From: an uncultured Alphaproteobacteria bacterium
Lineage (GTDB): Bacteria; Pseudomonadota; Alphaproteobacteria; RS24
Assembly: GCA_938091085.1 (NCBI GenBank)
Contig: CALKOC010000017.1
Coordinates: 1-64,000 of the forward strand
Reading direction: 5' to 3'
DNA length: 64,000 bases
Numbering within the stretch: position 1 is the first letter of the stretch; every line of letters starts with the position of its first letter. Below are positions 53,010 through 58,519 of the stretch, in pieces. Below the pieces are notes generated by a model. That model searched no databases, was not told the origin of the DNA, and saw only the letters and a list, made by a program, of their open reading frames with translations. A program made the position numbers and the translations under genes.

Positions 53010-54455
53010 ATGAGTGAAGTTAAAGGCACAAACCAGAATAGGAAATTGTTCGCCGGCATGCGCATTCGTAGGCTGCGTCGCGACCTCGGACTCACGCAAG
53101 CCGTCATGGCAGATTCACTCGGAATCTCAACAAGTTATCTTAATTTGATTGAACGCGACCAGCGCCCCGTTTCGGCACAAATTCTTATCAAAATGGTTGA
53201 TGTTTTTGACATAGACCCACGCGGTCTTGCAGGTGACGAAGAGGCTCGTGCGTATACCCAATTACGCGAGATTTTTGCTGACCCAATGTTCCATGACACA
53301 CCCGTTGCAGATCAAGAAATACGCGATATTTCTGCCGCCAGCCCAAATGCAGTGGATGCGATTGCGCGTCTATTCCAAACCTATCGCGATGCCAGCACAA
53401 CATCATCTATGCTGGCTGAGCGTTTGGCAGACAACACCCATGGCGAAACCACCAGCGCATTAATGTCATTTGAGGAAGTCCGAGACTTTATCAACCAGCG
53501 CTCTAATCACTTTCCTGAGCTTGATGATTATGCCGAGGAACTCTTTATGAAAGCGGGTCTGGTTGATGACGACCCTTTTCTTGCGCTCAGACACTATCTC
53601 CAAGAAACTCACGGCGTATCAACACGCATTGGACCGGTTGATTTGATGGGAGATGATTTAAGGCGGTACGACCGCCACCGCCAGACCTTGTTTCTTTCGG
53701 AACTACTCAATCAATCTAGCAGGGCCTTTCAGATTGCCTATCAACTCGCCTATTTTGAACATAGCAAAGCGGTTGAGGAAATTATCAATAGTTCCAAACT
53801 GGAAAACCCGGAAGCTCAACGCCTCGCGCGACTGGCCTTAATAAATTATGCCGCCGCAGCTATTTTGATGCCGTATGGTATTTTTCTTCAAACCGCGGAA
53901 GATAATGGATATGACATTACACTTCTTAGCCGACGCTTTGGCACCAGCTTCGAGCAAGTGTGCCATCGTCTGACAACCTTGCAACGCCCAGGCGCGAAGG
54001 GTGTGCCGTTTTTTCTCATACGTATCGACAATGCAGGAAACGTCTCTAAGCGTTTTGCCGCGGGTGGATTTCACTTTTCACGATTTGGCGGCACTTGCCC
54101 ACGCTGGAATATTCATGACAGCTTCAGACAACCCGGCAAAGTCATGACTCAAATCATCTGTATGGAGGATAGCACACGATATTTCTCTGTCAGCCGGACA
54201 GTGAGCCGAAACCGCTCGGCTTTTGACAAGCAGGATAATCAATTTGCCATCGGGCTTGGGTGTGAGATTTCTCATGCCAGCAAGCTGGTTTATTCACATC
54301 AGTATAATCTTGAAGAAACCAAAAGTGACATGCCCATTGGGGTGAATTGTCGACTTTGCGAAAGATTGGATTGTCACCAGCGCGCCACCCCGCCTTTGAT
54401 GCGAAGTTTACGGGTGGACGAGAATATTCGCGGCTTATCACCTTTTGACTTTTAA
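53010..54455 (+). CDS. XRE-family regulator, ScfR/RamB type (DUF2083-like C-terminus)
   Basis: 'MRIRRLRRDLGLTQAVMADSLGISTSYLNLIERDQRPVSAQ', C-term 'NCRLCERLDCHQRATPPL'. Confidence 0.9.
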   Translation: MSEVKGTNQNRKLFAGMRIRRLRRDLGLTQAVMADSLGISTSYLNLIERDQRPVSAQILIKMVDVFDIDPRGLAGDEEARAYTQLREIFADPMFHDTPVADQEIRDISAASPNAVDAIARLFQTYRDASTTSSMLAERLADNTHGETTSALMSFEEVRDFINQRSNHFPELDDYAEELFMKAGLVDDDPFLALRHYLQETHGVSTRIGPVDLMGDDLRRYDRHRQTLFLSELLNQSSRAFQIAYQLAYFEHSKAVEEIINSSKLENPEAQRLARLALINYAAAAILMPYGIFLQTAEDNGYDITLLSRRFGTSFEQVCHRLTTLQRPGAKGVPFFLIRIDNAGNVSKRFAAGGFHFSRFGGTCPRWNIHDSFRQPGKVMTQIICMEDSTRYFSVSRTVSRNRSAFDKQDNQFAIGLGCEISHASKLVYSHQYNLEETKSDMPIGVNCRLCERLDCHQRATPPLMRSLRVDENIRGLSPFDF

Positions 54456-54543: not shown

Positions 54544-56019
54544 ATGGCCAAAAAACAGAAAATTTTTAAACCAAAAGCCCGTATTCCCCGCGGTTTACGC
54601 GATATGCAAGGACCTGAACTGGCGTTTCAGAAGCTGATGCTTGAAAAAATTTCAAGCGTTTATGAAAGCTATGGATTTGACGCATTGGACACATCTGCCT
54701 TTGAGTACGCAGATGCATTGGGCAAATTTCTTCCGGATGATGACCGCCCCAATGAAGGCGTGTTTTCCTTCGAAGATGATGACGGACAATGGCTAAGCAT
54801 GCGCTATGATCTGACAGCCCCTCTGGCGCGTTTTGTTGCCGAGCATTATGACCGACTACCTAAACCTTTCCGCCGCTATCAATGGGGATCGGTTTTTAGA
54901 AATGAAAAACCCGGACCGGGCAGGTTCAGACAATTTCTGCAAATAGATGCCGATACCGTTGGTGCAGGGGGCAGTCAAGCGGATGCTGAAATGTGCCTAA
55001 TGGCAGCCGACTGCATGAAAACGCTCGGCCTATCTGACAATCAGTTTTCTGTAAACATTAATAACCGCAAAATACTTGATGCTATTCTAGCGCAGGTTGG
55101 TCTCGACGCGCAGGCTGATGACTATGATATGCGCCGCCTAACCATTCTACGCGCCCTCGACAAACTCGACAGGCTTGGTATTGGCGGTGTCGCTGATTTA
55201 CTTGGCGATGGGCGAAAGGATGAAAGCGGGGACTACACAAAAGGCGCAGGGCTAGATAAAGCATCCATTTCAAAACTGACTGATTTTGTGCAAGCCGGTC
55301 GGGATACGCGCGCGGACACCCTAAAAGCCCTCGCGGCAATTATCGGTGACTCTGAGATCGGCACGGCCGGACTAGAAGAACTCACCCTCATGGACACCTT
55401 AATGAAAGATGACAGCGACAGTATCTGTTTTAATCCATCGGTTGTCCGTGGTCTCGGTTATTATACTGGTCCAGTTTTCGAAATTGAGTTGAATATCGAA
55501 ACTGAAGACGAAAACGGCGAAATCGCTCGTTTTGGATCCGTCGGTGGTGGTGGGCGCTATGATGATCTTGTAAAACGCTTTAAAGGCATAGAAATCCCGG
55601 CAACAGGTATTTCAATAGGCGTCAGTCGCTTGGCTGCCGCGCTTACCCTACTTGGCAAAGCCGACACCAAGACCACGCAGGATTTAGTGGTCTTGCTCGT
55701 CATGGATAAAACCCGTTTGGCGGAAACTTCTGAACTGGTTAAAACCCTTAGAAATTCAGGCATACGCGCTGAAATGTACATGGGTGACAGTGGGATGAAA
55801 GCACAAATGCGTTATGCCGATAACCGCAATGCCCGCCTTGTGGTCATCGAGGGCGAGGATGAGCTAGCCGCCGGTATTGTAACCCTGAAAGACCTTCAAT
55901 TGGGGCAACAAAATGCCCAAAATATTAAAGATAATGAAGAGTGGCGCGCCTCTGAGCATGCACAAACACAAGTTTCTCGCACGGACTTGGCCCAGAAAAT
56001 CAAAGAAATACTCTCTTAA
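54544..56019 (+). CDS. hisS: Histidyl-tRNA synthetase, alphaproteobacterial type
   Basis: 'YDLTAPLARFVAEHYDRLPKPFRRYQWGSVFRNEKPGPGRFRQFLQIDADTVG'. Confidence 0.95.
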   Translation: MAKKQKIFKPKARIPRGLRDMQGPELAFQKLMLEKISSVYESYGFDALDTSAFEYADALGKFLPDDDRPNEGVFSFEDDDGQWLSMRYDLTAPLARFVAEHYDRLPKPFRRYQWGSVFRNEKPGPGRFRQFLQIDADTVGAGGSQADAEMCLMAADCMKTLGLSDNQFSVNINNRKILDAILAQVGLDAQADDYDMRRLTILRALDKLDRLGIGGVADLLGDGRKDESGDYTKGAGLDKASISKLTDFVQAGRDTRADTLKALAAIIGDSEIGTAGLEELTLMDTLMKDDSDSICFNPSVVRGLGYYTGPVFEIELNIETEDENGEIARFGSVGGGGRYDDLVKRFKGIEIPATGISIGVSRLAAALTLLGKADTKTTQDLVVLLVMDKTRLAETSELVKTLRNSGIRAEMYMGDSGMKAQMRYADNRNARLVVIEGEDELAAGIVTLKDLQLGQQNAQNIKDNEEWRASEHAQTQVSRTDLAQKIKEILS

Positions 56020-56032
56020 TCTTTTCTTTATT

Positions 56033-56150
56033 GACATAATGTCGATACAATATTCATGAAATATGAATATATTTGGTGAATATTGTAAATAATTTGGATA
56101 ATTTTATATTTATGAAGTTCATTTTTTATGAAATTAGCTAATAAATTCAT
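56033..56150. promoter_or_regulatory. Cluster of inverted repeats between hisS and hisZ
   Basis: GACATAATGTC (56033-56043); CAATATTCA/TGAATATTG arms (56048-56056, 56077-56085); ATATTCAT/ATGAATAT (56050-56057, 56063-56070); ATGAAGTTCAT (56112-56122). Confidence 0.55.
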
Positions 56151-56189
56151 TTTTCTTGATTTAATATTCAACTTCTGACATAAAACACT

Positions 56190-57488
56190 ATGACCCGATT
56201 AACCACAGCAACTGATGTGATTGATGCCCTAGGAGGGACGCAGGCCGTCGCGCGCCTGCTCGATGTCGGCGCATCTGCTGTATCCAATTATCGCCGCCAG
56301 GGTTTCCCTGCCCGTGCCTATTACAAGCTATCTCAGGCTTGCGCTCAAAGAGGTCTTGATGTTGCTGAGGCTGTTTTTGGCGGTCTTCAATCTCTTGAAA
56401 CGGCGCAACCAATGAGAGCCTCATTTCACCAGTTAAGAACCGGAATTCAGAAAAACAATACCAAAGAAACCGAAGCTATGGGCTTTTTGGCAAACCTTAT
56501 TGAAGATGGTTATGAACCCGTTACACCTTCCATACTCCAGCCTTCCTCACCATTTGTCGATAGGATGGGGCCGGAAATGCAACGTCGTCTTTTTACATTT
56601 ACCGACGCGGCAGGTGACCCATTATGTTTGAGGCCGGATTTAACCATCCCAACAGCCCTCGAACATTTAAAGCGCGGCAGGGATGGTGAAAAACGTTATT
56701 GCTATCAGGGAACAGCATTCCGCTATCAACCCCGCGGCAGTGGCAAGCCCGAAGAATTCACCCAGCTCGGTATCGAGATTATCGGCGAAGCAACAGATGG
56801 TAAGCCTCACCAGCAAGCAAATGAAGCTGAGGTTTTTGAACAAATATTAAAAACCATACTTGCCAGCGGAGTTAGCGGATTTCAAATCGTCTTTAATGAT
56901 ATGTCTTATCTGGCAGATAGGGTTGATGATTATGCCTTTTCCGATGCCTTTAAAAACCAATTAAAAAGACGATTGATGCAAAGCGACAGCTTGGAAGTCA
57001 TTCAACAAACGCTCACGACGCTTTCACAAAATACAGCACCCCCGCCAAACCCGGTACGCATGAATTTTGAGGCAACGGATAATATTATCGGGCGTTCAGG
57101 TGCCGAAATCTTTGCGCGTCTGGAACGCAAGCAACAAGAAAGCCAGAACACCGCGTCTGATTTGAAGGAATTACACCGTATGCGCGCCGATTTAGAGAAA
57201 CAATCAGACGGCTGCGCAAATCTGCCTGATTTTGCGCGTCCTCTTATTGAACCGGCGCTGAAGATGGGCTGCCGGGAGGATCAACTCGTCTATGCCCCTA
57301 ATCTGGGTCAGAAAATGGCTTACTATACCGGCTTATTTTTTGAAATTCATGTGCCTGCATTACAGGAAAAGCAGGTCATTGCTTCAGGTGGGCGATATGA
57401 TGATTTACTGCACAGTCTCGGCGCAGAAAGTCCCATTCCTGCCATTGGCGGAGCCATCGCGCTTGAGCGACTGCAGGAGGCAATATAA
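56190..57488 (+). CDS. hisZ: ATP phosphoribosyltransferase regulatory subunit HisZ fused to an N-terminal Cro/YdaS-like HTH domain
   Basis: Residues 1-62 'TTATDVIDALGGTQAVARLLDVGASAVSNYRRQGFPARAYYKLSQAC' HTH; from ~75 HisZ 'PSILQPSSPFVDRMGPEMQRRLFTFTDAAGDPLCLRPDLTIP'. Confidence 0.9.
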   Translation: MTRLTTATDVIDALGGTQAVARLLDVGASAVSNYRRQGFPARAYYKLSQACAQRGLDVAEAVFGGLQSLETAQPMRASFHQLRTGIQKNNTKETEAMGFLANLIEDGYEPVTPSILQPSSPFVDRMGPEMQRRLFTFTDAAGDPLCLRPDLTIPTALEHLKRGRDGEKRYCYQGTAFRYQPRGSGKPEEFTQLGIEIIGEATDGKPHQQANEAEVFEQILKTILASGVSGFQIVFNDMSYLADRVDDYAFSDAFKNQLKRRLMQSDSLEVIQQTLTTLSQNTAPPPNPVRMNFEATDNIIGRSGAEIFARLERKQQESQNTASDLKELHRMRADLEKQSDGCANLPDFARPLIEPALKMGCREDQLVYAPNLGQKMAYYTGLFFEIHVPALQEKQVIASGGRYDDLLHSLGAESPIPAIGGAIALERLQEAI

Positions 57489-58519
57489 TGCCAATTGATT
57501 TGAAAGATGAACCCCAAGACCTCAAAACCTTTATCCTTGCCGTCCCATCCAAAGGCCGGCTTGAGGAGAAGTCTGCCGAGATTTTTTCTAAAGCGGGCTT
57601 GCCCCTAATACGCGACGGCGCCCGTGGCTATCAGGGGGAGATGGCTGGCATTGATAGTGTAAGGGTAGAATATGTGTCTGCCGGAGACATCGCCGCACGG
57701 CTAGCGGAAGGTTCGGCGCATATGGGCATTACGGGCGAAGATTTACTGCGCGAGGAAATCGCCGATTTCAACAGTGCCATTCATCTGGTCAGTCCGCTTG
57801 GTTTCGGGCACGCCGATGTCGTTGTTGCGATACCTGATGGATGGGTTGATGTCACGACCATGAACGACCTTGCCGATGTCGCCGCCGAATTTAGAGCCCG
57901 GCACGGGCGACGCTTGCGTGTGGCAACGAAATACACTCATCTCACAACCGATTTCTTTGCGCGGCACGGCGCTGATGACTGCGAACTCGTGCAAAGTTTT
58001 GGCGCAACCGAGGGCGCCCCCGGCTCTGGTGCGGCTGAGGCGATTGTTGACATTACCTCAACTGGTGCAACTTTGGCGGCAAATAACCTGCGTATCCCTG
58101 AAGATGGGGTCATTCTCAAGAGTGAAGCTCAACTGGCAGCATCCTTGAAGGCAGACTGGTCAGATAAGACACGCGCAGCCGCAAAATTTATACTGACACG
58201 TCTGGAGGCTTACCAGATTGCAAAAAAACAAATCAAAGTCTCACTCAGGTCTTCACCCGGCATGGCATCGCCAGTGATACGACAGCAGGATATTGAACAG
58301 CTACAGATAAATTATGGGGCAAAACTGGTTGATATGTTCACCGGGTCAACAGATCAAGGGTCGTCCTACACTTTTGTATTACCGGCCAACCAACAGGCGG
58401 CATTTATGGATGATATGATAGGCAATCGGCTTTTTGCGATTGGGGAAGTGTCAAAACCTGATTTTCTGTATTTTCAGCGATGTGAAATGCTGGAGCGCTT
58501 ATTGGGTCGGCTGGTTTAA
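57488..58519 (+). CDS. hisG: ATP phosphoribosyltransferase with C-terminal extension
   Basis: 'LAVPSKGRLEEKSAEIF', 'VEYVSAGDIAARLAEGSAHMGITGEDLLRE', 'EAIVDITSTGATLAANNLRI'. Confidence 0.95.
   Translation: MPIDLKDEPQDLKTFILAVPSKGRLEEKSAEIFSKAGLPLIRDGARGYQGEMAGIDSVRVEYVSAGDIAARLAEGSAHMGITGEDLLREEIADFNSAIHLVSPLGFGHADVVVAIPDGWVDVTTMNDLADVAAEFRARHGRRLRVATKYTHLTTDFFARHGADDCELVQSFGATEGAPGSGAAEAIVDITSTGATLAANNLRIPEDGVILKSEAQLAASLKADWSDKTRAAAKFILTRLEAYQIAKKQIKVSLRSSPGMASPVIRQQDIEQLQINYGAKLVDMFTGSTDQGSSYTFVLPANQQAAFMDDMIGNRLFAIGEVSKPDFLYFQRCEMLERLLGRLV

Follow-up and report, generated by a model that had tools for sequence, protein, structure and literature searches.

The hisS-hisZ-hisG locus

In the window, i.e. 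the whole 64,000-nucleotide stretch that was analysed, three genes lie in the order hisS, HTH-hisZ and hisG. The gene hisS (54544-56019, plus strand) encodes a histidyl-tRNA synthetase (TIGR00442, 372 bits at a cut-off of 287). It is separated from hisZ by a gap of 170 bp (56020-56189), which is 81% AT, is enriched in TTCAT/ATGAA words, and is the candidate control region of hisZG. The middle gene (56190-57488, plus strand) was found by translation to be a single open frame of 432 amino acids, which starts with ATG and has no internal stop; an in-frame stop is located two codons 5' of the ATG at position 56190. The hisZ stop shares one base (TAATG) with the ATG of hisG (57488-58519, plus strand), the gene of the catalytic ATP phosphoribosyltransferase (TIGR00070, 165 bits at a cut-off of 76). 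With 343 amino acids this HisG exceeds the typical short-form enzyme, and past residue ~240 it gave no confident Pfam match. Upstream of hisS, a RamB/ScfR-type regulator with the domains HTH_3, Peptidase_M78 and ScfRs is encoded at 53010-54455.

A Cro/YdaS-type HTH in front of a divergent HisZ

The first-pass annotation had described the 432 amino acid product as a Cro/YdaS-type HTH followed by HisZ in an uninterrupted frame. This was confirmed: the frame is intact, the profile-matched span of the HTH is residues 9-58, and HisZ homology extends over residues ~90-431. The HTH domain as a whole (residues 1-65; 56190-56384, plus strand) was delimited by profile matches, model helices and comparison of a family profile with the PDB, and is most likely of the P22-Cro/YdaS/"carph-isopro" type. 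In profile searches residues 1-74 matched three models, each score lying just under the respective cut-off: NF046037 (carph-isopro; E 3e-9, 36.9 bits, 1.1 under the cut-off of 38), Pfam YdaS_toxin (E 6e-6, 26.4 bits, cut-off 30) and P22_Cro (E 7e-5, under the curated cut-off). The relative L054 (genome G294) clears the NF046037 cut-off, and with a profile of the family N termini two Cro structures, 1rzs and 3bd1, were matched at E 2e-4.

Structure prediction agreed with the assignment of the HTH. The whole-protein model (12-row input; mean pLDDT 67, which is moderate) has helices at residues 7-13, 17-24, 28-37 and 41-53 with pLDDT values of 71-89, the predicted recognition helix being residues 28-37 (coordinates 56271-56300). 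The PDB search with this model matched the HisZ part only; a single-sequence fold of the isolated HTH was poor and was left unused. Around the recognition helix, residues S29, S32, N33, Y34, R35, G38, F39 and P40 are invariant in the window's family. Comparison of the window with four relatives yielded dN/dS values of 0.04-0.15 for the HTH and 0.10-0.14 for the HisZ core, by which estimate the HTH codons are under purifying selection similar to that on the HisZ core. The two domains are joined by a variable linker that is predicted to be disordered (residues 66-97; 56385-56480, plus strand), with pLDDT below 50 at residues 65-97 and the highest dN of the three regions.

Residues 98-432 (56481-57488, plus strand) were assigned by PF13393 (E 6.5e-35), NF008953 and fold to HisZ, the HisRS-paralogous regulatory subunit of ATP phosphoribosyltransferase. 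The best NCBIfam HisZ model, NF008953, matched at E 7e-55 with 186 bits and missed the equivalog cut-off of 384; judged by these scores, the protein is a divergent HisZ. In the Pfam search HTH-HisZ had no HGTP_anticodon match, and the adjoining hisS has this domain. The model of the HisZ part matches the HisZ/HisRS structures 3od1, 1z7m and 8oy0, and the histidine-site motifs YYTG and GGRYDDL are invariant among the HisZ sequences of the family alignment. In two loci of genus g3 (L019 and L020) HisZ has only 376-393 amino acids, the middle region being gone and the HTH intact.

Distribution of the fusion

The same architecture was found in 24 of the 28 genomes of the window's family (the PS1 clade and MAGs labelled Rhodobiaceae, with isolate IMCC14465 (L066) included). 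The remaining four are drafts in which no such hisZ turned up, and an HTH-less HisZ was not seen in any of the 28. Wherever the 5' end of hisZ is complete, the matches begin at residues 1-4, with identities of 36-94%. In a second family of the same class (f49, 1.4-Mb genomes) HTH-HisZ is present in 15 of 18 genomes, and it lies between hisS and hisG as in the window. Outside the window's own family HisZ matches mostly start near residue 90, and the HisZ of Hyphomicrobiales has no HTH. In a tree of the HisZ part the two HTH families group against 25 HTH-less HisZ proteins with support of 97/90; because both sit on long branches, the tree allows a single origin of the fusion and does not prove it.

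Operator-like palindromes upstream of hisZ

In the 24 hisS-hisZ gaps of the family, TTCAT/ATGAA words were counted 106 times, as compared with 26.6 ± 4.8 in dinucleotide shuffles. The difference is inflated by kinship among the gaps, and held-out tests were therefore used. For training a palindromic matrix, TTCAT-N5-ATGAA (core TTCA-N7-TGAA), only family members from genera other than that of the window were used. When the 64 kb were scanned with this matrix, the two highest-scoring sites both fell into the 170 bp gap: O2, GTTCATTTTTTATGAAA (56117-56133, 13.0 bits), and O1, ATTCATGAAATATGAAT (56052-56068, 12.1 bits), the latter ~120 nt from the hisZ start codon. All other sites scored 10.3 bits or less. 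Among 5000 shuffles of the window's gap none gave two sites of at least 12 bits, and 108 gave one. The first-pass annotation had proposed that the protein could sense histidine and repress hisZ-hisG transcription, and had named 56020-56190 for footprinting. The proposal is largely supported, as the predicted sites provide candidate targets in this very interval.

A weaker operator-like site, O3, ATTCATTTTTCTTGATT (56145-56161, 6.8 bits), covers the -35 element of a putative promoter (56156-56184, plus strand), which consists of TTGATT (56156-56161), a spacer of 17 nt and the -10 element CATAAA (56179-56184). The assignment is based on a recurring TTGAYW-N17-(-10)-ATG arrangement, and TTCAT beside TTGAYW recurs among the family members. 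With 8 of 12 matches the putative promoter was not called by a consensus promoter scan of the window. Given this promoter, the hisZ mRNA would be leaderless or nearly so.

In the sister genome G001 the best-scoring 17-mer of 1.96 Mb is the one at the hisZ promoter (16.3 bits with the held-out matrix). The next intergenic site of G001, 5' of a rhodanese-like-looking gene, was taken as a chance match. In the same 1.96 Mb the matrix scan detected no strong site at hisBHAFE, the other his cluster of this genome. A regulon comprising all his genes was rejected on this ground, and the predicted control would reach hisZG only. It looks local, which would fit feedback on the first step of histidine synthesis.

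The second family, which was wholly held out, gave the same picture: each of the 15 hisZ genes is preceded by a site that scores no less than 13.3 bits, and 29 perfect TTCAT-N5-ATGAA sequences are found in the 15 gaps, usually two ~39 bases apart, the near one lying on the -10 element of a putative TTGATT-N17-TATATG promoter. For 22 HTH-less hisZ genes the best site did not exceed 9.4 bits, a contrast that is weakened by the many GC-rich genomes in this set. Two loci of family f1 (L039 and L047) scored low, and longer loci of the same genomes (L010 and L018) show normal-looking sites upstream of hisZ. The scans show the conserved, predicted sites to be strictly tied to the HTH form of hisZ in two families.

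Related HTHs on other enzymes

Searching with the same HTH revealed fusions in which related domains are joined to HisZ (twice), CarA, PyrB, ArgB, CoaBC, NnrD/E, SerA, GlmU, PdhA and Ccr, Pfam confirmation being available for one example each. One set is HTH-CoaBC (L056, L057, L333-L362): the HTH was matched in 54 of the 61 genomes of family f109, nearly always in frames of 350-550 amino acids. Upstream of these genes TTCAC/GTGAA words were counted 61 times against 5.9 expected, with a preferred spacer of 6, and the idea of a single 5-N5-5 geometry for every fusion was rejected on account of this N6 preference. Among the 30 loci retrieved from family f26 (L303-L332), 24 carry HTH-CarA, a fusion with the small subunit of carbamoyl-phosphate synthase that was also found in L061, L166 and L386; GGGAA/TTCCC words occur 79 times upstream against 16, including 30 perfect GGGAA-N5-TTCCC palindromes in 24 loci. 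Nine of 11 in family f113 carry HTH-NnrD/E (NAD(P)HX epimerase/dehydratase; L163, L363-L370), with TACGT present 16 times against 1.9 and arranged as TACGT-N5-ACGTA. HTH-PyrB (L058, L371-L373) was detected in three genomes, each with TTGCG-N5-CGCAA upstream. One genome, G139, has both HTH-PyrB and HTH-NnrD/E, each preceded by different sites. TTTACT/AGTAA-like repeats were recognized by eye upstream of HTH-ArgB (N-acetylglutamate kinase; family f59; L398-L400, L402, L411-L414). The separate HTH-HisZ of family f121 (L396, L407-L410) has a different HTH and TGTCCYG repeats upstream, and one protein of this type clears the HisZ equivalog cut-off with 403 bits.

Further HTHs of this kind were seen among L388, L401, L405, L060, L062, L403 and L404, on SerA, the pyruvate dehydrogenase E1 alpha subunit (PdhA), GlmU and a crotonyl-CoA-reductase-like dehydrogenase (Ccr) and, by eye, on prephenate-dehydratase-like and TorD-like proteins. 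The HTH is also present on coiled-coil membrane proteins that look like mitofilin/COG4223 (L144-L165, L168, L171, L172), and some of their genes adjoin hemC/hemD-like genes. The mitofilin-like fusions have no 5-N5-5 palindromes, yet GTACG/ACGTA words are enriched upstream, and therefore they do not constitute a clean negative control.

The recognition helix SNYR goes with TTCAT (HisZ) and TTCAC (CoaBC), and TTVQGW goes with TACGT (NnrD) and GTACG/ACGTA (mitofilin-like). Similar helices accompanied by similar half-sites are the pattern expected if the HTH reads the site, although the groups are few and the pattern was noted after the fact. It appears rather likely that these proteins form a modular class in Alphaproteobacteria, in which Cro/YdaS-type HTHs were joined repeatedly to the N termini of enzymes, each enzyme would repress its own gene at cognate sites, and the code relating recognition helix and half-site would be readable. 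If so, the fusions would amount to a natural library of many metabolite-sensing enzymes, all linked to one small HTH, from which Cro-type recognition rules could be read and biosensors built, and proteins annotated so far by enzyme name alone would gain functions. This wider class, the operator-like sites, the second family and the separate second HisZ fusion go beyond the first-pass annotation.

HTH-HisZ as a candidate autorepressor of hisZG

Taking into account that matching palindromes are present at the start of its own gene, the enzyme and the gene are probably under the control of the same protein. We consider it likely that HTH-HisZ is bifunctional, serving as the allosteric subunit and as an autorepressor of hisZG with HisZ as the histidine sensor. 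The HisZ part would assemble with HisG and sense histidine, pairs of HTHs would bind the TTCAT-N5-ATGAA sites in front of the hisZ promoter and on it, and an ample supply of histidine, or of free HisZ, would lead to a block of hisZG transcription. In short-form complexes a tetrameric HisZ core is located between HisG dimers, and inhibition is mediated by histidine bound to HisZ (PMC10795190). With four HisZ subunits in the core there would be four HTHs per complex, which would suffice for two of the two or three palindromes to be occupied at once, and the complex could hold two operators together. Binding of the operators by the HTH, repression, its dependence on histidine and the formation of tetramers or loops are what we infer from the sequences. 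If true, feedback on the activity of the histidine enzyme and on gene expression would run through a single molecule, and a tRNA-synthetase paralogue would be the ligand sensor of a repressor. His control in alphaproteobacteria without attenuators, T-boxes and HisR would become testable with one protein and one 170 bp DNA.

Autoregulation alone accounts for all the sequence data, and it could respond to a signal other than histidine. HisZ that is free because it outnumbers HisG might bind the DNA, in which case the operon would sense the balance of the subunits, a balance suggested to matter by the one-base overlap between hisZ and hisG. This is conceivable, with a probability that we put rather low: histidine binding is an established property of HisZ (PMC10795190), and its YYTG and GGRYD motifs are kept.

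HTH-HisZ might instead be an activator, or repress at high and activate at low occupancy, as could be read from the two or three sites at varied distances and from the remoteness of O1 from the start codon. Such a role is unlikely: Cro-type proteins are repressors, and the sites lie over promoter elements in the second family, as they probably do in the window.

It is decidedly improbable that a different regulator binds the TTCAT palindromes, the HTH serving protein contact or being an inert relic of a prophage gene. Binding of the operators by the HTH is deduced from sequence, and YdaS-type proteins were named prophage toxins in E. coli (PMC5700373), but the HTH is better conserved than the remainder of the protein, with its codons under strong purifying selection, the sites and the HTH occur together in two families and are jointly absent elsewhere, and the sites of the other HTH-enzyme fusions differ, tracking the recognition helix.

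That the HTH is not made at all, because translation starts at the internal ATG at residue 76 or because the fusion is an artefact of assembly or frame, can practically be dismissed, since the same frame is found in 39 genomes of two families, a stop lies just upstream, codon change in the conserved HTH is biased to synonymous sites, and the internal Met, which precedes RASFHQLRTG in the window, varies even within the genus (PSQSRF in L004, PLRPP in L005).

Comparison with known systems

The proposed histidine-responsive autorepressor resembles short-form HisZ in sequence, fold matches, synteny with hisG and histidine-site motifs, and differs from it by the N-terminal HTH, the operator-like sites at its own gene and scores below the NCBI equivalog cut-offs. 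Enzymes acting as autorepressors or trigger enzymes include PutA, BirA and NadR. PepA, likewise a trigger enzyme, represses genes of its own pathway (PMC6245113). All of these combine in one protein a metabolic role and DNA binding at genes of their own pathway, the latter being predicted in the case of HTH-HisZ. In contrast to PepA, PutA, BirA and NadR, HTH-HisZ has another HTH and another sensor, a catalytically dead HisRS paralogue, and in the wider set one HTH type is joined to many unrelated enzymes, unlike in the known trigger enzymes. HTH-HisZ looks like an added variant of the trigger-enzyme idea.

In some alphaproteobacteria his operons are controlled by HisR, a TrpR-family repressor with the site TGTAnTArnnnnyTnTTACA (PMC9413887). 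The likeness consists in palindrome-based control of his genes, which for HTH-HisZ is predicted from the sites. HisR, however, is a separate, non-homologous protein of the TrpR type, and membership of HTH-HisZ in this group was ruled out by its Cro/YdaS-type HTH and its TTCAT-N5-ATGAA site.

Among open PMC papers no description of an HTH-HisZ fusion, of a DNA-binding HisZ or of HTH-enzyme fusions of this kind was found, and the open literature yielded no paper on carph-isopro. In sequence the HTH resembles P22 Cro, Xfaso Cro, YdaS and NF046037; the Cro proteins among these are phage regulators, small and free-standing, whereas in the window the HTH forms part of the allosteric subunit of a metabolic enzyme. 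The matches of NF046037 include HTH-CarA proteins, and thus the domain has already been catalogued on enzymes by curators.
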